NCBI GenBank assembly: GCA_003220435.1
Contig: QHSL01000039.1
Coordinates: 1 to 49,472, forward strand
DNA length: 49,472 nt
From: Candidatus Rokuibacteriota bacterium
GTDB taxonomy: Bacteria; Methylomirabilota; Methylomirabilia; Rokubacteriales; CSP1-6
Direction of reading: 5' to 3'
The notes beneath the pieces were generated by a model. The model saw nothing but the letters and a program-made list of their open reading frames with translations, was not told where the DNA came from and did not search any database. The position numbers were made by a program, and so were the translations under genes. The stretch's first letter is position 1, and each line of letters starts with the position of its first letter. Shown one piece after another: positions 479 through 44,503 of the stretch.

Positions 479-2128
479 ATGGTGACGTTGCGCGTGGCGG
501 TCGCTCTTCTTCTGGCGTTGCTCCTGCCGCTTGCGCTGCTGGCTCCCGGAAGCTCCGAGCATTCGCCGCGGCATGCGAGCGATCCTGAGCTCCCTCGCGT
601 CTGCGTCGACACCACGTCTGCGCCGCCCAATGGCCGGACCATTGCGGTCGCGTCCGGCAGCAACTTCCACGCGGCGCTCAAAGCAGCGCAGCCGGGCGAC
701 GCGATTACCCTCGAAGCCGGGGCGCGGATCACGGGCAACTTCACGCTCCCCAACAAGCCGGGCACAGGCTGGATCACCATCCGCACCGCGGCGCCGGACA
801 GCCAGCTACCTGCCCCGGGGACGCGCATCACCCCGGCCTACGCGAGCGCCTTGCCCAAGCTCGTCAGCCCGAACAGCCGGCCCGTCATCACCGCCGCCCC
901 CGGAGCGCATCACTACCGATTCATCGGCGTCGAGTTCACCGTCAGCCCCGAGGTCACCATCAACTACCACCTGATCCTGCTGGGCAACCGGCCGACCTCG
1001 GCGGAGGACGTGCCGCACGATCTGATCTTCGACCGCGTGTACATTCACGGCAACCCGCGCGTGAATCTGCGGCGGGGCATCGGCCTGAACAGCGCCCGGA
1101 CGGCCATCATCGACTCCTACATCGCCGAGGCGCATGAGGTGGGCGCCGACTCTCAGGCGATCCTGGGCTGGGACGGCCCCGGGCCCTTCAAGATCGTCAA
1201 CAACTACCTCGAGGGGGCGGGTGAGAACCTCATGTTCGGCGGCGCGGATCCCTCGATCCGCGACCTCGTCCCGTCCGACATCGAGATCCGCCGCAACCAC
1301 TTCTTCAAGCCGCTGACGTGGCGGATCGGGGACCCGAGCTACGCGGGCACGCCGTGGACGGTCAAGAATCTCTTGGAGCTGAAGAATGCGCGCCGAGTGC
1401 TCATCGACGGCAACCTCTTCGAGCACAACTGGGCCCACGAGCAAGCGGGGACCGCCATCGTCCTCACGGTCCGCAACCAGGACGGGACCGCGCCGTGGTC
1501 GGCGGTGGAGGATGTCACGCTCAGCAATAATGTCGTGCGGCACACGGGCGCGGGCCTGGGGGTGCACGGCATCGACGAAAAGCCAAGCCAGCCCACCAAG
1601 CGCATTCTGATCAGGAACAATCTGTTCGACGATGTCAGCGCCGCCCGATGGGGCGGCAGTGGGCGGCTCTTCCAGGCCGTTCACGGGGTGACCGATCTCG
1701 TGATCGAACACAACACCGCGTTTCAGGATGGGTCCATCATCTGGGCGGTGGGTCGGCCGCACATCGGATTCGTCTACCGTGACAACCTCGCGCCCCACAA
1801 CGACTACGGCATCCATGGCGTCGGTACGCAGCCGGGCCGCCACTCGCTCGAGACGTACTTCCCCGGCGCCATCGTGGAGAGGAACGTGATCGTGGGCAAT
1901 CCATACGTTGCGCAATACCCCCTCGACAACTTCCACCCGCTCTCACTCGCTGCCGTGGGATTCGTCGATCAGGTCGGACGCGACTACCGCCTCAGCAGCT
2001 CGAGCCGGTACCGGCGGGCCGGCAGCGACGGAAAAGGCATCGGCGTCGATTTCGACGAGTTCTCCGCCGCGATGGCGGCGGCCGAGGCCAAGGACCTGAT
2101 CGCCGCCTGCGCGAGGCAGCACCGATGA
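479..2128 (+). CDS. secreted right-handed parallel beta-helix protein (paralog 1)
   Basis: The 549-residue product has a leucine-rich signal peptide (about residues 1-26). A conserved module follows that all four paralogs here share: L.R...DTT..PP.GRTI, a GD.I.L.AGA turn and GNFTLPNK.G.GWI. The body is rich in Asn/Ile ladder strings (IEIRRNHFF, VLIDGNLFE, ILIRNNLFDD), typical of pectate-lyase-like right-handed beta-helices. No lyase catalytic motif could be assigned, so the substrate is unknown; a surface polysaccharide or adhesin role is plausible. ATG 479 is preceded by AAGGA four bases upstream. The protein ends after the helix and has no accessory domain, unlike its paralogs. Its stop overlaps the next start by 4 bp (ATGA). 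Confidence 0.85.
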   Translation: MVTLRVAVALLLALLLPLALLAPGSSEHSPRHASDPELPRVCVDTTSAPPNGRTIAVASGSNFHAALKAAQPGDAITLEAGARITGNFTLPNKPGTGWITIRTAAPDSQLPAPGTRITPAYASALPKLVSPNSRPVITAAPGAHHYRFIGVEFTVSPEVTINYHLILLGNRPTSAEDVPHDLIFDRVYIHGNPRVNLRRGIGLNSARTAIIDSYIAEAHEVGADSQAILGWDGPGPFKIVNNYLEGAGENLMFGGADPSIRDLVPSDIEIRRNHFFKPLTWRIGDPSYAGTPWTVKNLLELKNARRVLIDGNLFEHNWAHEQAGTAIVLTVRNQDGTAPWSAVEDVTLSNNVVRHTGAGLGVHGIDEKPSQPTKRILIRNNLFDDVSAARWGGSGRLFQAVHGVTDLVIEHNTAFQDGSIIWAVGRPHIGFVYRDNLAPHNDYGIHGVGTQPGRHSLETYFPGAIVERNVIVGNPYVAQYPLDNFHPLSLAAVGFVDQVGRDYRLSSSSRYRRAGSDGKGIGVDFDEFSAAMAAAEAKDLIAACARQHR

Positions 2129-4905
2129 GGGTGCCGGGGATCGTCGCGGCCGGACTCCTCACGGCAGCGCTCCTACTCCCCCCCGGCGTCGCCCTGGGCG
2201 TCGCGCCAGAGCTCCCCCGCACCTTCGTCGACACGACGTATGTCGCGCCGACGGGTCGCACGATCGCCGTGGCGGCAGCCGGCGACTTCCAGGCGGCGCT
2301 CGACGCCGCGCAACCGGGCGACCAGATCACCCTCGAAGCCGGGGCGAGCTTCATCGGGAACTTCACGTTGCCCAACAAATTGGGCGACGGCTGGATCATC
2401 GTCCGGACCTCGGCAACCGACAGCGCGCTGCCGGCCCCGGGCACCCGCATCACACCGGCCTACGCCGCCGTGTTGCCGAAGATCATCAGCCAGAACGCCA
2501 ATCCGGCGCTCACCGCCGCCCCCGGGGCGCATCACTACCGGTTCATCGGCGTCGAGTTCACCGTGAGCCACGGGGTCGTCTTGAACTACCAGCTCATCCT
2601 GCTCGGCAACCGCCCGGCCTCGCTGGCCGACGTGCCGCACGATCTCATCTTCGATCGGGTGTACATCCATGGGACCTCGTACGTAGATCTCCGGCGCGGC
2701 ATCGCGTTGAACAGTGCCGCCTCCGCCGTCATCGACTCGTACATCGCGGATGCTCACCAGGTGTCGTCGGACTCCCAGGCCCTTGCGGGCTGGGACGGCC
2801 CCGGGCCGTTCAAGATCGTCAACAACTACCTGGAGGGCGCTGGTGAGAACCTCATGTTCGGCGGCGCGGATCCCTCCCTCCAGGGGCTCGTCCCGTCCGA
2901 CATCGAGATCCGCCGCAATCATTTTTTCAAGCCTTTGTGGTGGAGGGCGGGCGATCCGAGTTACGCCGGAATCCACTGGACCATCAAGAACCTTCTGGAG
3001 CTCAAGAACGCGCAACGAGTCCTGATCGACGCCAATGTCTTCGAGAACAATTGGCTGGACGCGCAGAGCGGCACCGCCATCGTTTTCACGGTTCGCAACC
3101 AAGAGGGCACCGCACCGTGGTCGGTGGTCCAGGACGTCACCTTCACCAATAACATCGTGCGGCACACCAGCGGAGCGATCGGCATGCATGGCTGGGACGA
3201 CATCTACCCCAGCCAGCAAAGTGCGCGCTTCCTGATCGAGAACAACCTCCTGGACAACGTCGACAGCGCCACGTGGGGTGGAACCGGGTGGCTCTTCAGT
3301 GCCTTTCGGGGCCTCGTCGACCTGCAGATCGAGCACAACACCGGATTCATGGACCAGGCGATCATGATGGCCGGCGACGCGGCCCATACCGGGTTCATCT
3401 ACCGCAACAACCTCACTCCGATGGGCGTCTCTGGCTTCACGGGGGTCGACACCCAGCAGGGCGTCCAGACGCTCGACACGTACTTCCCGGGCTACCTCTT
3501 CCAAGGGAACGTCCTCGCGGGGGCAGCCCCGGCGCTCTATCCGGCCAACAACTTTTTCCCCGCCTCGCTCGCGACGGTGGGCTTCGTCGACCTCGCGGGG
3601 GGCAATTACCGCTTGTCCGCCGCGAGCCCGTACAAGAATGCCGGGACCGATGGCAAGGACATCGGCGCCGACATTGACGCGGTCGAGGCCGCCACCGCCG
3701 GCGTCCCTACACCACGGGACCCACCGCCACCGCCGACAGTGACGCGCTTTGAGGAGACGGAGCAAGCGGTGGCGTACACCGCGGGCTGGGTCAGTAGCTC
3801 GTCAGCGCGGTGGAGCGGTGGGGCGGCCGGGGTGTCGACGGCGGCAGGCGCACAAGCGATCTTCACCTTCACCGGGACGTCGGTGAGCTGGGTCGGCTTC
3901 CGCGGGCCCCAGGCCGGTATCGCTCGGGTCGTGCTGGATGGGGTGCTGGTTGGCGACGTGGATCTGTTTGCGCCCACTCAGGAATTTCGGGTGGTGGTCT
4001 TCACCGCAAGGGACCTGGTCGCCGGGCGTCACACGTTGACGATCGAGGTGACCGGCCTGAAGAACGCGGCGTCGACGGATACCGTGATCGTGGTGGATGC
4101 CTTCGACGTGCCGGCACCGATAGTAACGCGCTTCCAAGAGACGGATCCGGCCATAACCTACACGACCGGTTGGGCCGAGGACAGTAGTGCAGGGAGTGGA
4201 TGGAGTGGAGGGAGCGCCGCGGTCTCGAGGACAGTGGGCGCGAACGCGACCTTCACCTTCACCGGGACGTCGGTGAGCTGGATCGGCTACCGCGGGCCGC
4301 AGGCCGGTATCGCTCGCGTATCGCTGGATGGGGCGCTGGTCGGCGACGTGGATCTGTTTGCGCCGACTCCAGTAACTCAGGTGGTCGTCTTCACCGCAAA
4401 GGACCTGGCCGCCGGGCGCCACACGCTGACGATCGAGGTGACGGGCCTGAAAAACGCGGCATCGACGGACATCACGATTGTGGTGGATGCGTTCGAAGTG
4501 ACATCGACGTCATCCCAGACCACGGGGTCGTCCTTTGAGGAGACGCATCCATCGATCGCGTACACGCCGGGTTGGGCCCTTAACTCGTCACTGATGTGGA
4601 GCGGTGGGGCGGCTGGGTACACGACGACGGCGGGCGCGCGAGCGACCTTCACCTTCACCGGGACGTCGGTGAGCTGGATCGGCTACCGCGGGCCGCAGGC
4701 CGGTATCGCTCGCGTATCGCTGGATGGGGTGCTGGTTGGCGACGTGGACACCTATGCGCCCGCTGCCCAATTCCGGGCGGTCGTCTTCTCAAGAGCGGGC
4801 CTGGCGCCCGGGAGTCATACTCTGACGATCGAAGCGACGGGCCTGAAGAACCCGGCTTCGACCGATGTCTTCATCGTGGTGGATAGGTTTGATGTCTCCA
4901 ACTGA
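2125..4905 (+). CDS. secreted beta-helix protein with three C-terminal jelly-roll-like repeats (paralog 2)
   Basis: The 926-residue product starts inside the stop of paralog 1 (ATGA), which implies translational coupling. A signal peptide of about 28 residues ends near LGVA. The beta-helix module (about residues 30-525) closely follows paralog 1. A short proline-rich linker (about 531-537) leads to three tandem domains of about 125 residues. Each begins with FEET or FQET and carries FTFTGTSVSW, GPQAGIARV.LDG, VGDVD and HTLTIE.TGLKN, ending in IVVD.F.V. This resembles galactose-binding-like carbohydrate-binding domains of secreted glycan enzymes. I infer that the helix is held on a glycan by these three domains. 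No catalytic residue was identified. Confidence 0.85.
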   Translation: MRVPGIVAAGLLTAALLLPPGVALGVAPELPRTFVDTTYVAPTGRTIAVAAAGDFQAALDAAQPGDQITLEAGASFIGNFTLPNKLGDGWIIVRTSATDSALPAPGTRITPAYAAVLPKIISQNANPALTAAPGAHHYRFIGVEFTVSHGVVLNYQLILLGNRPASLADVPHDLIFDRVYIHGTSYVDLRRGIALNSAASAVIDSYIADAHQVSSDSQALAGWDGPGPFKIVNNYLEGAGENLMFGGADPSLQGLVPSDIEIRRNHFFKPLWWRAGDPSYAGIHWTIKNLLELKNAQRVLIDANVFENNWLDAQSGTAIVFTVRNQEGTAPWSVVQDVTFTNNIVRHTSGAIGMHGWDDIYPSQQSARFLIENNLLDNVDSATWGGTGWLFSAFRGLVDLQIEHNTGFMDQAIMMAGDAAHTGFIYRNNLTPMGVSGFTGVDTQQGVQTLDTYFPGYLFQGNVLAGAAPALYPANNFFPASLATVGFVDLAGGNYRLSAASPYKNAGTDGKDIGADIDAVEAATAGVPTPRDPPPPPTVTRFEETEQAVAYTAGWVSSSSARWSGGAAGVSTAAGAQAIFTFTGTSVSWVGFRGPQAGIARVVLDGVLVGDVDLFAPTQEFRVVVFTARDLVAGRHTLTIEVTGLKNAASTDTVIVVDAFDVPAPIVTRFQETDPAITYTTGWAEDSSAGSGWSGGSAAVSRTVGANATFTFTGTSVSWIGYRGPQAGIARVSLDGALVGDVDLFAPTPVTQVVVFTAKDLAAGRHTLTIEVTGLKNAASTDITIVVDAFEVTSTSSQTTGSSFEETHPSIAYTPGWALNSSLMWSGGAAGYTTTAGARATFTFTGTSVSWIGYRGPQAGIARVSLDGVLVGDVDTYAPAAQFRAVVFSRAGLAPGSHTLTIEATGLKNPASTDVFIVVDRFDVSN
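3738..4902 (+). repeat. three tandem coding repeats of about 375 bases
   Basis: Units run at about 3738-4118, 4120-4500 and 4528-4902. The core stretch CACCTTCACCGGGACGTCGG is found in all three, as is the region coding GPQAGIARV. The near-identical third positions point to recent duplication or continuing gene conversion inside this gene. Confidence 0.85.
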
Positions 4906-4943
4906 TATCCGGATGATCGGCGTCGTGCCCGCTGAGGTTCCGG

Positions 4944-6839
4944 TCAGAGAACGCTCTCGCCGGTGAAGGCGGTTGGCGTGGCCCGCGCAGAAGGGCCGTT
5001 GAGTACGTCCTGGAGCGCGCGGGCGGCGGCGCGGAGCTCGGTCAGATGCACCGCGTTCACGACGGTCTGGCCCGGCGTGGGTGTAGGGTCGGTGTAGATC
5101 GGGAGCGCCCGCCCAGCGGCCTGGTAGGCTTGGTTGAGCGCCGTCCTGAGCTCGCTGACGTGGACGACCTTGACCGAGGTGCTCCCGGGCGAGAGCGTGA
5201 GATCGGTCCAGGCAAAGGTCGCCAGCCCGCGGCTAACGCGGAGGCTATCGACGGCCGCCCGGACCTCCAGGATGTGCGCCGTGAGGAGCGTGCCCTGGGC
5301 CGTGAGCGGGTCGTCGGTGAAGGTAAAGGTCGCGGTCAAGGTCACCGTCACGGTAGCGGTCGCACCGTTGCCGGCGGCGTCCTGCGCGGTGACCGTGAGC
5401 ACGTTGGTCCCCAGCTGCAGGACGATGCCGCCCGCCGTCCAGCTCGTCGTGCCGGTCGCGGTGCCGCTGCCGCCGCGATCGTTCGTCCAGGTCACTGTGG
5501 CGACCCTCGTGTTGTCCGACGCGAGTCCGCCGAGCGTCAGGAGGGAAGCGCTCGTGCTGTAGGCTGAGCTGGAGGTGGGCGAGGTGATGGTCACGGCGGG
5601 CGGCGTGGCGTCGGCGTTCACGAGTGTCACGCTGATCCCAGCCGAAGTCGCGGTGTTGCCGGCCGCGTCGCGGGCGACGGCTGCAAGGAGGTGGGTCCCG
5701 TCGAGGACGTTTCTGGTGTTCCAGGAAACGCTATAGGGGGCTGAGGTGACTTCGGCACCGAGGTTGGCGCCGTCCAGTTCGAACTGCACACCCACCGTCC
5801 CGACATTGTCAGTCGCGCTGGCCGAGACCGTGATCGTACCGACGACCATCGCCCCCAAGGCGGGGGCCGAGATCGCGACGGTCGGTGGGATCATGTCGGG
5901 ATCACTGGCACAGACTCCGGAGCTCGCACAGGACGTCGCCAAATCCAGAAGGTTGAAATCGACGCCGATATCGTCGCCGTCCGTGCCCGCATTCTTGTAA
6001 GGGCTCAAGGCCGAGAGGCGGTAATTGCCGCCCGCGATATCGGAGGGCACGAGGTTGGGCACGGAGGGATCGGCCCCGCCGAACATGACGTTCTCGCCCG
6101 AGCCCTCGATGTAGTTGTTGACGAGCTTGAAGGGGCCGGGGCCATTCCAGCCCAAGATGGCCTGGGCGTCCTGCACCGTTGAATGGAAGTCGGCGAGATA
6201 GGAGTCGATGACCGCAGTCCGCGCGCTGTTCAGTTGAATGCCTCGTTTGTAATTCCCCGTCGGCGTACCGTGGATGTAGCAGCGGTCGAACACGAAGTCG
6301 GCCCCGGAATCGAGGGCGATGAGCCCGAATTGGGTCGCGGTCGTGTCGGCCAAGGTTCCGGTGACCTCCACCCCGATGAAGCGGTAGTGGTGGGCGTTGG
6401 TGGCCGTCGTGAGGGCCGACGAGGAGTTCGGGGTCACGATCCTCGGCATGAGCACCGAGTGCGCGGGGCCCACACGGGTATCCGCAGGGACGAGACTCGC
6501 GAGCGCCGAGGACTGGATGTAGATCCAGCCGGTGCCTGATTTATTCGGCAGGGTGAAGTTGCCGGTGTAGGTGGCCCCGGCCTGGAGCTCGATCACATCC
6601 CCCGGCTCCGCTGCATCCAGTGCTGCCTGCAAATCTCCGTTCGCCGAGACCGCGATCACTTCCCCAGTTGGTGGGACCAGGGTGGTATCCAGATAGACCT
6701 GCGGCAGCAGCGGCAACGTTGTCTGGGCGACGCCAGGAAGGGGGCGTACCAGGATCGTCGCGTTGACCGCAACCAGGAGAGCCAGGCCGCTGCGGGCCAG
6801 ACGACGACGGCTCCCGGAGGGCATTGCGGCCCCATTCAA
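4944..6839 (-). CDS. secreted beta-helix protein with internal deletion, Ig-like domains and VH..LR repeats (paralog 4)
   Basis: The 631-residue product has a signal peptide (about residues 1-38) and the shared N-terminal helix module (DTTLVPPTGE, GDVIELQAGA, GNFTLPNKSG). At residue about 267 the sequence jumps from NLVPSDI directly to AGGNYRLS. In its neighbour at 6866-11482 these two points are separated by about 230 residues, so most of the helix is missing in frame. Two Ig-like domains follow: one Big_7-like, with TVSASATDNVG and NVLDGTHLLAAVARDAAGN, and one with DNTRVATVTWTNDRGGSG. The end is a VH..LR repeat module. The start ATG at 6839 lies 26 bases after the stop of the upstream minus-strand paralog, so the two form an operon. 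Whether the shortened helix still folds is unclear. Confidence 0.8.
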   Translation of the reverse strand: MNGAAMPSGSRRRLARSGLALLVAVNATILVRPLPGVAQTTLPLLPQVYLDTTLVPPTGEVIAVSANGDLQAALDAAEPGDVIELQAGATYTGNFTLPNKSGTGWIYIQSSALASLVPADTRVGPAHSVLMPRIVTPNSSSALTTATNAHHYRFIGVEVTGTLADTTATQFGLIALDSGADFVFDRCYIHGTPTGNYKRGIQLNSARTAVIDSYLADFHSTVQDAQAILGWNGPGPFKLVNNYIEGSGENVMFGGADPSVPNLVPSDIAGGNYRLSALSPYKNAGTDGDDIGVDFNLLDLATSCASSGVCASDPDMIPPTVAISAPALGAMVVGTITVSASATDNVGTVGVQFELDGANLGAEVTSAPYSVSWNTRNVLDGTHLLAAVARDAAGNTATSAGISVTLVNADATPPAVTITSPTSSSAYSTSASLLTLGGLASDNTRVATVTWTNDRGGSGTATGTTSWTAGGIVLQLGTNVLTVTAQDAAGNGATATVTVTLTATFTFTDDPLTAQGTLLTAHILEVRAAVDSLRVSRGLATFAWTDLTLSPGSTSVKVVHVSELRTALNQAYQAAGRALPIYTDPTPTPGQTVVNAVHLTELRAAARALQDVLNGPSARATPTAFTGESVL

Positions 6840-6865
6840 GCACGAAAAGGACCCGTGAGATTCTC

Positions 6866-9800
6866 TTACTGGAGCGCGCGGGCGGCGGTGCGGAGGTCGG
6901 TCAGATGCACCGCTTTCACGACGGTCTTTCCTGCCGTGAGGGTGGGATCGGTGTAGGTCGGGAGCGCTCGCCCGGCGGCCTGGTACGCCTGGTTGAGCGC
7001 TGTCCTCAGGTCGCTGAAGTGGACCGCTTTGGCCTTGGAGCTCACCGGGGTGAGCGTGGGATCAGTCCAGGCAAAGGGTGTCAGCCCGTGGGCCACGCGG
7101 AGGCTATCGATGGCCGCCCGGAGCTCCACGATGTGCACCGTCTTGATGACGGTGGACTGAGCCACGGGCGGGTCGTCGGTGAACGTGAACGTTCGCGTGG
7201 CGGTCAGGGTGTTCGAGGCGGTGTTGCCGGCGGCGTCGCGGGCGGTGATCGTCAGCACGTTGCCGCCGGACTGAAGGACGATGGCGCTGGCGGTCCAGCT
7301 GGTCGTCCCGGTGGCGGTGCCGCTGCCGCCCCGATCGTTTGCCCACGTCACCTGGGTCACGCCGAGGTTGTCCGACGCGATGCCGCTGAGCGTTAGCGAG
7401 GAGCTGCCCGTCGTGTAGGTCGGATTAGAGGTGGGCGCGGTGATGGTGACGGAGGGCGCCGTGGTGTCGGTGAGGGTTACCGTCAGGGTGGCGGTCCCGG
7501 TATTGCCGGCGGCGTCCCGGGCGGTGACGGTGAGCACGTTTGACCCAGACTGCAGGACGATGCCGCCGGCCGTCCAGCTCGTGGTGCCGGTGGCCATGCC
7601 GCTGCCGCCCCGGCTGTTCGTCCACGTGACCTGGGTCACCGCGAGGTTGTCCGAGGCCGTGCCGCCGAGCGTCAGGGGGGTGGTGCTCGTGGTGTAGGTC
7701 GCGCTGGAGGTGGGCGCGGTGATGGTCGCGGTGGGCGCCGTGGTGTCCACCGGAGGTGGCCCACTGCAGGCTCCAGTGAGCGCACATAATGTCGCCACAT
7801 CGATAGTATCGATATCTGCGCCCGGATCCTTACCGTCGGTTCCGGCATTTTTATATGGACTGCCGGCCAAAAGCCGATAGTCGCCGCCCGCATAATTGAC
7901 GAAGCCCACATCATTCACGGTAGCCGGAAAGAAGTTGCCCGCCGGGAAGTTGCCAGGGCCGCCAATCTCGACGTTGTGCGTGTTCGTGCTCGGCGCCCAA
8001 CCGCCCTGGATGCCGCCCCCGACAGGCTGCAAATTGTTCGTAAAGGCGAACGGTCCTCCGCTGGAAGTCCAGATGGCGGCACCGTCTTGGAATGCGGTGT
8101 TATGGTCGATGATGATGTCATTGTCCGAGTACGACATGAACACGATCCCGTCGTTGATCGAAGAAGAAATGTCGAGCCAGAGATTGTTGCGTACAAGAAT
8201 ACGCTGCATCGCGCTGCCGCCCAGATTCGCGATCCCGATGCCGCGTCCCAAGTGCTGATTGATGTTGTTGGTGATTGTGACATCCTCCACTGGACACCAG
8301 CTGCACGTGCCCCACTGATTACGCGCGGTGAGCACCAAAGAGTTGGCCCCTTGCTGCCCGAACGCGGCATTCGGGTCGACCCAGCAGTTTTGAAGAATAT
8401 TGCCGTCGATAATCACCCGCTGGGCGTTCTTGAGCTCAAGGATGTTTTTTATCGTCCAGTGCTGGCCCGCGAAGCTCGGGTCGCCGACGCGCCAGGACCA
8501 GGGCTTCTCCATCAGATTGCCCCGAATCTCGATGTCCGCGGCGACCGTACTTGAGCTCGGGCCGAAGAGAATGTTGATGGCGGCCGCACGGACCGTATTG
8601 TTGACGATTTTGTAGGGGCCCGCTCCGTTCCAGGAGATGATGCCCTGCGCCTCGTCCGCGTCGACGTGGATGTCGTCGATCCAGGAGTCGATGATCGCCA
8701 CGCGGGCGGCCTCCAGCTCGACGCCCCGTTTATAGTTGCCGTACGGCTGACCATGGATGTAGCTGCGGTCGAGAACGAAGTCGTGGTTGCTTTGCCCGCC
8801 GAACATGACGAGGTTATTCTGCACGCTGCTGGTATTGGTCAGTGTGCCGGTGATCTCGAGACCGGCGAGTCGATAAAGCTGTGATCCGCCGCCACTGGTG
8901 ATCGCCGACGAAGAATTCGGTGTCACGATCTTCGGCATGAGGGCGGCCTGGGTTGGAGTGACGCGCGTACCCTCTGGCATCGCGGCCAGGGCTGACGACT
9001 GTATATAAATCCAGCCAGGTCCCGATTTGCTGGGTAGGGTGAAGTTGCCGGTAAACGTGGCTCCGGCTTGCAGCTCAATAATGTCTCCCGAATTTGCAGC
9101 GTTCAAAGCGGCTTGAAAGTCACCGCCGGAGTTTACAGTTCTCTTTACACCTCCGGTCGGCAACGAGTAGGTCGTATTGAGAAATATGCGGGGGCATTCG
9201 GGGATTCCCGGATTTGCAGAGGGGTTGGTGGTGCATCCGGTCGCCCCGGCGGAGGCCAAGGGAGTGACGGCCGAGGAGGTTGCGGTGGAGAGGGCCCGCC
9301 CGGCGCCGGCGGCATTCGAGACGGTCACGGAGAGCGCCGTGGACGTCGTCGCATTGCCCGCAGCGTCCCGGGCGACGGCGGTGAGGGTATGGGGCCCGTT
9401 GGGGGCGCCCGTGGTGTTCCACGAGACGGCGTAGGGGGCGGCCATGACTTCCGGGGCGAGGTTGGCGCCGTCGAGCTTGAACTGCACTCCGACAACGCCC
9501 ACGTTGTCCGTTGCGGTCGCCGACACGGTGACCGTGCCCGCCACCGTTCCCGCGGCCGGGGCCGTGATGGAGACCGCCGGCGGCGTCAAGTCGCCGTTGC
9601 GGACCGTGACGCTGATGGGGGCCGAGGTGGTCTCGTTGCCGGCGGCGTCCCGGGCCACGGCGCGTAGGGTATGGGCGCCGTTGAGGGCAGTGGTGGTGTT
9701 CCAGGAGACTGTATAGGGCGCAGCGGTGACTGCCGCCAGGTTGACGCCATTCAATTTGAACTGGACGCTGGCGACGCGCACGTTGTCGGCGGCGGTCGCC

Positions 9801-11482
9801 GAGACGGCGACGGTTCGGGAGATCGTCGCACTCGCTGCCGGTGACGTGATGACGACGGTGGGAGCCGTGGAGTCAGCGGTCGGCGCGGTGACGAGGCCGC
9901 CGGCGAAGGCGACCTCGATCGCGTCGATATCGGCACCGATGTCCTTGCCATCGGTCCCGGCGTTCTTGTAGGGGCTCGAGGCGGCGAGGCGGTAATTGCC
10001 GCCCGTGAGGTCGACGAAGCCCACGGCCGCGAGCGCGGCGGGGAAGAAGTTACCGGCGGGGTAGAGCGAGGCGTTGCCACCCGCCAGGACATTGCGCATG
10101 AACACCGCGCCCGGGAAGTACGCGGTGAGCGTATCGATCCCCTGGCTGGTGCCGGTCCCCGCGAACCCCTGGGCCCCGGCGGGGGTGAGGTTGTTCGTAT
10201 AGATGAAGCGCGTGTGGGGCTCGCCGCCGTCGGCATGCAGAACGGCCTGGTCCATGAACCCGGTGTTGTGGTCGATGACCAGATCGCTGATGCCGTGGTC
10301 GGCATGGGCAAGCCACCCCGGGCCGCTCGTGCGGGTGGTGTCGAGCAGGAGGTTGTTCTTGATCAGGAAGCGGGCGCTCGGCCGGCTCGGATGGAGGTCG
10401 TCCCGGCCGTGCATGCCGAGGCTTTCCCCCACGTGATGCACGATGTTGTTGGTGAACGTGACGTCCTCGACGGTCGACCAGGGCGCGGTGCCGTCCTGAT
10501 TACGGACCGTGAACAGGATGGCCGTGCCCGCCTGCACATCCGGCCAAGTGTTCTCGAAACGGTTGCCGTCGATGAGAACCCGGCGGCCGTTCGTGAGCGC
10601 GAGGAGGGTGTGCACGCGCCAGGGGATGCCGGCATAGCTCGGATCGTCCACGCGCCAGGCCAGCGGCTTGAAGAAATGGTTACGGCGGATCTCGATATCG
10701 GACGGGACGAGATTGGGGACGGAGGGATCGGTCCCACCGAACATCACGTTCTCGCCCGAGCCCTCCAGATGGTTGTTGACGAGCTTGAAGGGCCCGGGGC
10801 CGTTCCAGCCGACGATGGCCTGGGCGGCCTGCGTTGTTGAATGGAAGTCGGCGAGGTAGGAGTCGATGACCGCGGTCCGGGCGTTGTTCAGCTGAATGCC
10901 TTGGTTGTAGTTTCCGGTGGGCGTGCCGTGGATATAGCAGCGGTCGAACACGACGTCGGTCCCGGACCCGAGGGCGACGAGATTCGATTGGGTCGAGCTG
11001 GTGCCGGTCACGGTGCCCGTGATTTCCACCCCGATGAAGCGGTAGTGATGAGCGTGGGCGGCCGTCGTGAGAGCGGCGGACGCGTTCGGGGTCACGATTT
11101 TCGGCATGAGCGTGGCGTGCGCGGGGGCGACGCGGGTGCCGGCGGAGGGCAGACTCGAGAGGGCCGAGGACTGGATGTAAATCCAGCCAGGGCGCGTTTT
11201 ATACGGCAAGGTGAAGTTGCCGGTGAAGGTGGCCCCGGCCTGGAGCTCGATCACATCTCCCGGCTGCACGGCGTCGAGGGCCGCCTGGAAATCGCCGCCG
11301 GCCGCCACGCGGAGGGCGGCGCCCGTCGGTGAGACATACGTCGTGTCCAGGAACACGAGGGGGAGCTGGGGGAAGGTGGACTGAGCGACGCCCGATCCGG
11401 GGCAGCTCAGGGTCGTGGTGATGACCGCGAGGAGGAGAGCGAGTCCCGTGCCGGGTGGAGCGCGAAGGCACCCCGAAAACAT
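6866..11482 (-). CDS. giant secreted protein with two beta-helices, four Ig-like domains and VH..LR repeats (paralog 3)
   Basis: The 1538-residue product starts at ATG 11482 behind GAGGGGGA. Its order is: signal peptide (about 1-34); beta-helix 1 (about 38-535); two Big_7-like Ig domains (about 540-725, with SVQFKLNGVNLA and GVVGVQFKLDG); a linker; beta-helix 2 (about 764-1225, beginning PECPRIFLNTTYS); two further Ig-like domains (about 1235-1430, with VTWTNSRGGSG and NVLTVTARDAAGN); and a C-terminal VH..LR repeat region (about 1440-1538). The second helix is less similar to the other copies, and its DNA is visibly AT-richer. A surface adhesin or glycan-interacting role is inferred; no catalytic site was recognised. 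Confidence 0.8.
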   Translation of the reverse strand: MFSGCLRAPPGTGLALLLAVITTTLSCPGSGVAQSTFPQLPLVFLDTTYVSPTGAALRVAAGGDFQAALDAVQPGDVIELQAGATFTGNFTLPYKTRPGWIYIQSSALSSLPSAGTRVAPAHATLMPKIVTPNASAALTTAAHAHHYRFIGVEITGTVTGTSSTQSNLVALGSGTDVVFDRCYIHGTPTGNYNQGIQLNNARTAVIDSYLADFHSTTQAAQAIVGWNGPGPFKLVNNHLEGSGENVMFGGTDPSVPNLVPSDIEIRRNHFFKPLAWRVDDPSYAGIPWRVHTLLALTNGRRVLIDGNRFENTWPDVQAGTAILFTVRNQDGTAPWSTVEDVTFTNNIVHHVGESLGMHGRDDLHPSRPSARFLIKNNLLLDTTRTSGPGWLAHADHGISDLVIDHNTGFMDQAVLHADGGEPHTRFIYTNNLTPAGAQGFAGTGTSQGIDTLTAYFPGAVFMRNVLAGGNASLYPAGNFFPAALAAVGFVDLTGGNYRLAASSPYKNAGTDGKDIGADIDAIEVAFAGGLVTAPTADSTAPTVVITSPAASATISRTVAVSATAADNVRVASVQFKLNGVNLAAVTAAPYTVSWNTTTALNGAHTLRAVARDAAGNETTSAPISVTVRNGDLTPPAVSITAPAAGTVAGTVTVSATATDNVGVVGVQFKLDGANLAPEVMAAPYAVSWNTTGAPNGPHTLTAVARDAAGNATTSTALSVTVSNAAGAGRALSTATSSAVTPLASAGATGCTTNPSANPGIPECPRIFLNTTYSLPTGGVKRTVNSGGDFQAALNAANSGDIIELQAGATFTGNFTLPSKSGPGWIYIQSSALAAMPEGTRVTPTQAALMPKIVTPNSSSAITSGGGSQLYRLAGLEITGTLTNTSSVQNNLVMFGGQSNHDFVLDRSYIHGQPYGNYKRGVELEAARVAIIDSWIDDIHVDADEAQGIISWNGAGPYKIVNNTVRAAAINILFGPSSSTVAADIEIRGNLMEKPWSWRVGDPSFAGQHWTIKNILELKNAQRVIIDGNILQNCWVDPNAAFGQQGANSLVLTARNQWGTCSWCPVEDVTITNNINQHLGRGIGIANLGGSAMQRILVRNNLWLDISSSINDGIVFMSYSDNDIIIDHNTAFQDGAAIWTSSGGPFAFTNNLQPVGGGIQGGWAPSTNTHNVEIGGPGNFPAGNFFPATVNDVGFVNYAGGDYRLLAGSPYKNAGTDGKDPGADIDTIDVATLCALTGACSGPPPVDTTAPTATITAPTSSATYTTSTTPLTLGGTASDNLAVTQVTWTNSRGGSGMATGTTSWTAGGIVLQSGSNVLTVTARDAAGNTGTATLTVTLTDTTAPSVTITAPTSNPTYTTGSSSLTLSGIASDNLGVTQVTWANDRGGSGTATGTTSWTASAIVLQSGGNVLTITARDAAGNTASNTLTATRTFTFTDDPPVAQSTVIKTVHIVELRAAIDSLRVAHGLTPFAWTDPTLTPVSSKAKAVHFSDLRTALNQAYQAAGRALPTYTDPTLTAGKTVVKAVHLTDLRTAARALQ
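6869..7160 (-). repeat. C-terminal VH..LR repeat module (2.5 units)
   Basis: Three units of about 38 residues share VK.VH...LR.A followed by a helix and then (W/Y)TDPTLT. They begin TVHIVELRAAIDSLR, KAVHFSDLRTALNQAY and KAVHLTDLRTAARALQ; the third is cut after the helix. The same module ends the paralog at 4944-6839. I do not recognise it as dockerin, SLH, a type IX sorting signal or an autotransporter. A surface-attachment or oligomerisation role is a guess. Confidence 0.7.
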
Positions 11483-22981: not shown

Positions 22982-23752
22982 ATGAGATTCCAGGGACGGA
23001 CCGCGCTCATCACCGCGGGGGGGCGCGGCATCGGCCGGGCGACCGCGGAGATCATCGGTCGTGAGGGTGGGACCGTCGTCGCCGTCGACCTCGACAAGGA
23101 GAGCCTCGACCAGGTGGTGGGGGCGATCCGTGTCGCCGGCGGAACCGGGCACGCCATCGTGGCCGATGCGCTCGACGCCTTGCAGGTGGCAGGCGTGGTG
23201 CGACGGGTCGTCGAGGAGCACGGCCGGATCGACATCCTCGTGAACGCGGTCGGCGGCAGCACGATCATCTCGAAGCCGAGCGCCACCGTGGACGAGTTGA
23301 CGTTCGATGAGTGGCAAAGGCTGCTGAGCTTCAACCTCACCGGCACCTTCCTGTTCACCAACGCGGTCGTGCCCGTGATGAAGCGCCAGCGCGGCGGGAA
23401 GATCGTCAACCTCTCGTCGATCGCGGGCCGCGGCCTGAGCGCGACGAGCAGCAGCGCCTACGCCACCGCCAAAGGCGGGATCATCGCGTTCACCCGGAAG
23501 CTCTCGCTCGAGCTCGGCCCGTACGGCATCACCGTGAACGCGATCGCCCCCAGCCTCACGCTCAGCCCGCGGCTGCGCCCGCGCTGGGACGCGATGTCGC
23601 CGGAGGAGCGCGCGCGCCAGGCGGCGCAAGTGCCGTTGGGCCGCGTGGCGGAGCCCATCGATCAGGCGCGCGTCATCTGCTTTCTCGCATCCAGCGACGC
23701 CGACTTCGTCACCGGCGTCACGATCGACGTCAACGGGGGCAGCAGAGGCTAG
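22982..23752 (+). CDS. SDR-family oxidoreductase
   Basis: The 256-residue product is a classical SDR: the cofactor motif TAGGRGIG (11-18), the aspartate of VDLD that suggests NAD(H) preference, S145/S146, Y160 and K164, and VNAIAPSLTLSPR. The N-terminal motif has A in place of the usual G (TAGGRGIG rather than TGGGRGIG). The end FVTGVTIDVNGGS is the family tetramer-contact tail. It has its own promoter and a strong ribosome site. Confidence 0.93.
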   Translation: MRFQGRTALITAGGRGIGRATAEIIGREGGTVVAVDLDKESLDQVVGAIRVAGGTGHAIVADALDALQVAGVVRRVVEEHGRIDILVNAVGGSTIISKPSATVDELTFDEWQRLLSFNLTGTFLFTNAVVPVMKRQRGGKIVNLSSIAGRGLSATSSSAYATAKGGIIAFTRKLSLELGPYGITVNAIAPSLTLSPRLRPRWDAMSPEERARQAAQVPLGRVAEPIDQARVICFLASSDADFVTGVTIDVNGGSRG

Positions 23753-44365: not shown

Positions 44366-44503
44366 TTAGCCTCCGCCCGTCGCTTGCGCCAGGGTGTCCC
44401 TGAGGGCCCACGGAAGGCGGTACGAATCAACCCGCAACTGCCACTGGCGATGAGCCGGGAAGGCGCGGGCCGTAGGGCGATCCGGACGCCAGGAGACTTG
44501 CCC
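44366..44503 (+). promoter_or_regulatory. cobalamin (B12) riboswitch
   Basis: The leader of the cbiA gene contains the B12 box GCCAGGAGACTTGCC (44488-44502). Upstream are the other conserved blocks: CGGAAGGCGGTACGAATC, CCCGCAACTGCCACTGG and GAGCCGGGAAGGCGCGGG. Order and spacing fit an adenosylcobalamin-class riboswitch. When B12 is plentiful it should lower expression of the synthesis gene. The exact edges are approximate, and no separate terminator was seen, so control is probably at translation. Confidence 0.85.

Follow-up and report, generated by a model that had tools for sequence, protein, structure and literature searches.

A three-unit helical domain on exported proteins of Rokubacteria and Acidobacteria, a candidate module for retention at the cell surface or in the matrix

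Two adjacent minus-strand genes in a 49,472-nucleotide (nt) stretch of Candidatus Rokuibacteriota DNA (GenBank assembly GCA_003220435.1, contig QHSL01000039.1, positions 1 to 49,472; hereafter the window) encode secreted beta-helix proteins that share a C-terminal domain of about 105 residues. The domain apparently forms a new sequence family, and its fold is unmatched as far as the PDB goes. It is found on unrelated exported proteins of Rokubacteria and Acidobacteria, where it sits mostly at one end of the chain, and in one phylum part of its carriers are co-regulated with attachment genes. Retention fits this combination best. We infer, at roughly even chances, that the domain is a retention module whose non-covalent binding keeps exported proteins on the cell surface or within the surrounding matrix.

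The domain consists of three complete loop-helix units of about 27 residues each, spaced 38 residues apart with short spacers between them, and the unit consensus is [FWY]TDPxLxxGxTx[IV][KR]AxHxxELRxA[IVL]. When the units were compared with one another by hhalign, all pairs matched (units 1 and 2, E 1e-21; units 2 and 3, E 1e-16; units 1 and 3, E 7e-18). Exactly three units were present in 111 of 114 distinct domains (48 from Rokubacteria and 66 from Acidobacteria), and the spacing was mostly 38+38. The AlphaFold model, built with 84 related domains, comprises three helices and no strands (predicted local distance difference test, pLDDT, 87.8; predicted template modelling score 0.83), with pLDDT values of 85-88 over the models of the domain, and each predicted helix begins at the AxHxxELR motif (residues 17-33, 55-71 and 93-106). 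Column statistics over the 84 domains showed conserved polar H/E/R positions as well as conserved structural residues. Two open reading frames (ORFs) from Acidobacteria (L113:8664-9896 and L119:6628-7311) contain just two units or one, with cysteines flanking the motif, e.g. CTWTDDPIVAGETPIKAEHINEIRRC; they are perhaps disulphide-stabilised variants of the unit.

Carrier 1 (6866..11482, minus strand) is a secreted protein of 1538 amino acids (aa) with a signal peptide, two beta-helix regions, four Big_7-type Ig domains and the three-unit domain at its C-terminus (6869..7189, minus; 107 aa). The unit cores, all on the minus strand, are FTDDPPVAQSTVIKTVHIVELRAAIDSLR (unit 1, 7097..7183; helix at domain residues 17-33), WTDPTLTPVSSKAKAVHFSDLRTALNQAY (unit 2, 6983..7069; helix at 55-71) and YTDPTLTAGKTVVKAVHLTDLRTAARALQ (unit 3, 6869..6955; helix at 93-106, with the stop codon next). 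The end of the third helix is thus the end of the protein. The initial annotation, made from the letters of the window, had recognised a repeat shared by the C-termini of the two proteins, and this was confirmed, the domains being 73% identical (E 8.6e-44) and their internal repeats far above chance. Its count of 2.5 units, with the last one cut at the protein end, has to be replaced, since a spacer had been counted into the unit and unit 3 is complete.

Carrier 2 (4944..6839, minus; an ORF of 631 aa, with the likely start at the ATG at 6824, followed by a signal peptide) is a paralogue with a shortened beta-helix. Its domain (5010..5327, minus; 106 aa) is followed by a tail of 21 aa, DVLNGPSARATPTAFTGESVL (4947..5009, minus), that lies outside the domain. 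Where carrier 1 reads CTCCAG-TAA-GAG, carrier 2 reads CTCCAG---GAC, so the tail, previously regarded as an extension of the repeat, results from the loss of a stop codon that carrier 1 has retained. The beta-helix body of carrier 2 also has an in-frame internal deletion, and the gene is perhaps in decay. Across their shared stretches, the two carriers are 78-79% identical in nucleotide sequence. Being paralogues, they are not independent evidence and prove little alone; the independent evidence is provided by six other copies in the genome of the window and by copies on unrelated bodies elsewhere.

To place the domain among known families, single domains (hmmscan, up to E 10) and the 84-member alignment were searched against Pfam (2025), NCBIfam (2026), PHROGs and PDB sequences. 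In these searches every Pfam and NCBIfam model stayed below its cut-off, so that no described family was hit, and neither PHROGs nor PDB sequences gave a usable match. Two candidates were rejected. DurN (PF19375) matched 7 of the 84 members (best E 8e-5), with the individually shown matches under the cut-off of 23.9 bits, and phrog_16011 matched 9 of the 84 (best E 2.7e-7), the match being confined, where coordinates were shown, to the helix motif of about 20 residues. A Foldseek search of the domain model against the PDB gave nothing below E 0.001. Against viral models it gave weak matches to proteins of unknown function from rod-shaped viruses and phages (best E 7.6e-3), from which we claim no homology. 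No relatives were found in phage and plasmid collections or in viral contigs, and no paper in the literature collection searched contained the motif.

The genome of the window contains 8 copies of the domain, and 11 of 59 relatives are positive, with 1-9 copies each. In Acidobacteriota 13 of 297 genomes are positive and the richest single genome has at least 53 copies, the per-genome counts from the scan of Acidobacteria being lower bounds. Among 84,980 species genomes scanned, matches occurred only in metagenome-assembled genomes of Rokubacteria and Acidobacteria; the breadth beyond these two groups rests on two strict patterns. Most of the genomes are metagenome-assembled, and several carriers are interrupted by contig ends. 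The distribution is sporadic yet multi-copy. Within the window's genus, for instance, genomes with the domain (G000, G003 and G006-G008) stand beside genomes that lack it (G001 and G004). It was a sporadic, multi-copy pattern, with a median of 8 and up to 65 copies per genome, that led to the recognition of PEP-CTERM as a sorting tag (PMC1569441).

In the 114 distinct domains, the distance from the domain end to the stop codon is at most 3 residues in 96 and 4-30 residues in 11, and the domain lies elsewhere in the remaining 7. These exceptions are located directly behind a signal peptide (L016 and L115), inside RHS proteins (L070, L076 and L087) or in mid-chain (L073 and L088). The C-terminal location noted in the initial annotation is therefore a strong tendency (107 of 114) and not a rule. 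A signal peptide was predicted for 67 of 85 carriers by a heuristic that is crude and had no negative control, so that the fraction is indicative. The bodies are unrelated to one another and include Ig/Fn3, beta-helix, GSDH, S8 subtilase, M36, apiosidase, CBM6/9, LRR (13 carriers), M12 reprolysin (10-12), astacin, Kelch, GH44 and RHS proteins. The best match of the domain and the best match of the body were found in different carriers in 45 of 57 cases, and thus the domain moves between bodies. Given the N-terminal and internal copies, it is a portable module and not an obligatory C-terminal processing signal. The two copies directly behind a signal peptide indicate that it works at either end of a protein, as expected for a binding module.

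A retention module would act as follows. The carriers would be exported via Sec, and the three [FWY]TD-loop-helix units of the domain would then fold up together as one compact body. The folded domain could then bind a component of the cell surface or the matrix, either a glycan or an outer-membrane receptor, so that enzymes and adhesins would stay with the cell or its matrix, much as SLH domains hold theirs, although this domain does not belong to that family. Some of the Rokubacteria carriers would be controlled by an upstream riboswitch for cyclic diguanylate (c-di-GMP), alongside pilins and genes for polysaccharide synthesis, as part of a sessile programme.

The SLH domain, which binds secondary cell wall polysaccharide, offers a parallel in use: it also has three tandem helical units and is found on many unrelated exported proteins, at the N- or the C-terminus. 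Its units are of about 55 residues and carry the motif TRAE, whereas the units described here have 27 residues, a spacing of 38 and the motif HxxELR. The SLH model (PF00395) did not match the domain, and SLH was present in just 2 of 18 carrier genomes.

The main rival explanation is a true C-terminal sorting signal, in which a dedicated outer-membrane machine for secretion or processing would recognise the folded domain and export the carrier, with or without removal of the domain, by a logic like that of type IX secretion but without homology to it. We consider this unlikely, although the extreme C-terminal bias with its fixed end, and the all-or-none, multi-copy distribution over diverse secreted carriers, speak for it; together they form the profile that revealed PEP-CTERM (PMC1569441). 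The copies behind signal peptides and inside RHS proteins speak against it. Type IX C-terminal domains (as in PF18962 and TIGR04183) are likewise borne by secreted enzymes and adhesins of many unrelated kinds, but no such model matched, and with three predicted helices and no beta-sandwich the domain is unlikely, judged by the model, to be a type IX signal. SprA_N was found in none of the 18 carrier genomes, though no control genome gave a match either.

The likeness to PEP-CTERM and MYXO-CTERM (PMC1569441, PMC11980579) is one of habit and not of membership: all are sporadic, multi-copy and C-terminal on diverse signal-peptide proteins of diderm soil bacteria. However, the present domain is folded, comprises about 105 residues and is sometimes not C-terminal, and the tripartite arrangement of motif, transmembrane helix and basic tail is missing. 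In the 107 C-terminal carriers there is no hydrophobic helix, as no window of 19 residues exceeds 1.6 on the Kyte-Doolittle scale. Exosortase is not co-distributed with the domain: one carrier genome (G012) lacks it, and many genomes that have no copy of the domain encode it. In the regions L045:5147-11512 and L052:7311-13753, a domain carrier and a domain fragment, respectively, immediately precede an XrtA-type exopolysaccharide locus with genes for a sigma-54 response regulator, a TIGR03007 chain-length determinant, a TIGR03015 ATPase and an UpxY antiterminator. Despite these two loci, exosortase/XrtA was rejected as a partner, since a comparison of positions over the genomes gave few coincidences and no co-distribution. 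At another locus an UpxY-family antiterminator gene (L006:3077-3640) adjoins a domain carrier (3908-7030), and the orthologous L041 locus looks alike.

A different possibility is that the domain is an assembly module, pairing with a cognate protein domain, by the logic of dockerin and cohesin, or with itself to build multi-protein complexes on the surface. Its habits are those of type I dockerins, which are likewise short loop-helix repeats placed mostly at the C-terminus of extracellular enzymes and adhesins. By eye the loop-helix spacing, [IV]-x-A-x-[H/D]-[LIV]-x-x-L, is also similar, and hhalign aligned exactly this stretch, but the comparison with seven dockerins was non-significant (E 0.81, probability 0.05%) and a degenerate dockerin was therefore rejected. 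Neither the single domains, up to E 10, nor the 84-member alignment matched Dockerin_1 (PF00404). There are three units here rather than two, column statistics over the 84 domains revealed no duplicated DxNxDG calcium loop, calcium ligands are missing, and cohesin was absent from 16 of the 18 carrier genomes, with two weak matches in Acidobacteria. Furthermore, when Rokubacteria carriers with unrelated bodies were compared, the domains were about as similar within a genome (97 bits) as between genomes (99 bits), so there is no sign of genome-specific pairing in this group. All this makes an assembly module improbable. The initial annotation did not recognise the domain as a dockerin, an SLH domain or a type IX signal, and this holds up: the domain is all-helical by prediction and reached no family cut-off. 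We place it among the multi-copy surface-targeting domains, as a member of neither SLH nor dockerin.

Finally, the domain could be a cap that serves folding or stability by shielding the C-terminus of extracellular proteins and that has no partner at all. The location at chain ends and the compact three-helix fold with its conserved structural residues are in line with such a role. On the other hand, a fixed architecture of three units and conserved polar H/E/R positions would not be expected of a generic cap, nor would N-terminal and internal placements or a very uneven distribution over genomes, and we judge a cap quite improbable.

The link to attachment comes from riboswitches. In Rokubacteria, nine carriers of about four body types (in L016, L020, L021, L022 with two, L025, L036, L037 and L038) have an RF03167 riboswitch (c-di-GMP-I-GGC) upstream, at a distance of 41-64 nt from their start; Rfam scored these sites at 63-77 bits (gathering threshold 59). 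The chance expectation for a riboswitch within 150 nt upstream of any carrier is 0.005, against the nine observed, with about 37 RF03167 riboswitches across the ten genomes in the window's family that carry the domain. Other RF03167 sites in these and related genomes precede genes that were read from sequence, without a search, as type IV pilins, a glycosyltransferase-like membrane protein and sigma-54 regulators. At two Rokubacteria loci (L186 and L189; G011:C27 and G032:C287) the gene immediately behind RF03167 is type IV pilin-like, and the genome of the window has one riboswitch ahead of a gene that is cut by the contig end (L182) and encodes a beta-helix protein paralogous to those of the window. 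Control of a surface-binding protein by a c-di-GMP riboswitch is reported for CbpA of Bacillus thuringiensis (PMC7423583), and multiple targets of such riboswitches are reported in Clostridioides difficile (PMC6200980). The likeness to CbpA is that a c-di-GMP riboswitch is immediately followed by the gene of a surface-type protein; the bacteria and the proteins are different, and here the link comes from sequence only and concerns a subset of the Rokubacteria carriers.

Several observations weigh against retention. Neighbour clustering revealed no dedicated machinery gene, just paralogues, regulators and polysaccharide genes, and the analysis turned up neither a ligand nor a receptor, nor any export or partner gene. 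The general reading of attachment, export or assembly, proposed earlier from position and conservation, stands in outline. The extreme C-terminal bias, which in Rokubacteria amounts to 46 of 48 domains, could equally well reflect a sorting signal. Because an Fn3-type body is common to six of the nine carriers with a riboswitch, the number of independent origins is about four. RF03167 also precedes some carrier paralogues that lack the domain, and there is no riboswitch at the window's own carriers or in the 25 Acidobacteria loci scanned, in a group where c-di-GMP-I riboswitches are rare genome-wide. The riboswitch therefore marks a class of surface proteins in Rokubacteria and not the domain itself.

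A more far-reaching proposal, which we put forward tentatively and regard as rather doubtful, is that the single-chain three-unit helical fold, with no counterpart in the PDB, serves soil diderms (Rokubacteria and Acidobacteria) as the substrate tag for a sorting or anchoring system not yet described, recognised by a putative receptor or outer-membrane machine, and that part of its cargo in Rokubacteria is switched by c-di-GMP riboswitches. Both groups are common in soil and mostly uncultured, and how they hold secreted enzymes and adhesins at their surface is largely unknown. A domain present on dozens of exported proteins per genome offers a handle on this surface proteome and a query for a partner by phylogenetic profiling, and the riboswitch link connects some of these proteins to c-di-GMP and, through it, to attachment.

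As to the surroundings of the two carriers, sequence comparison identified two beta-helix paralogues without the domain on the plus strand of the window, a neighbouring gene at 479..2128 and a second at 2125..4905, whose C-terminal repeats match CE2_N instead. ARAGORN called a tRNA-Leu (23383-23473, minus) on the strand opposite a likely coding region of the short-chain dehydrogenase/reductase type; it was not reported by Rfam at the cut-off and is perhaps a false call. A cobalamin riboswitch (44390-44496, plus) is located upstream of a gene (44518/44551-45945) whose start resembles cobyrinic acid a,c-diamide synthase.

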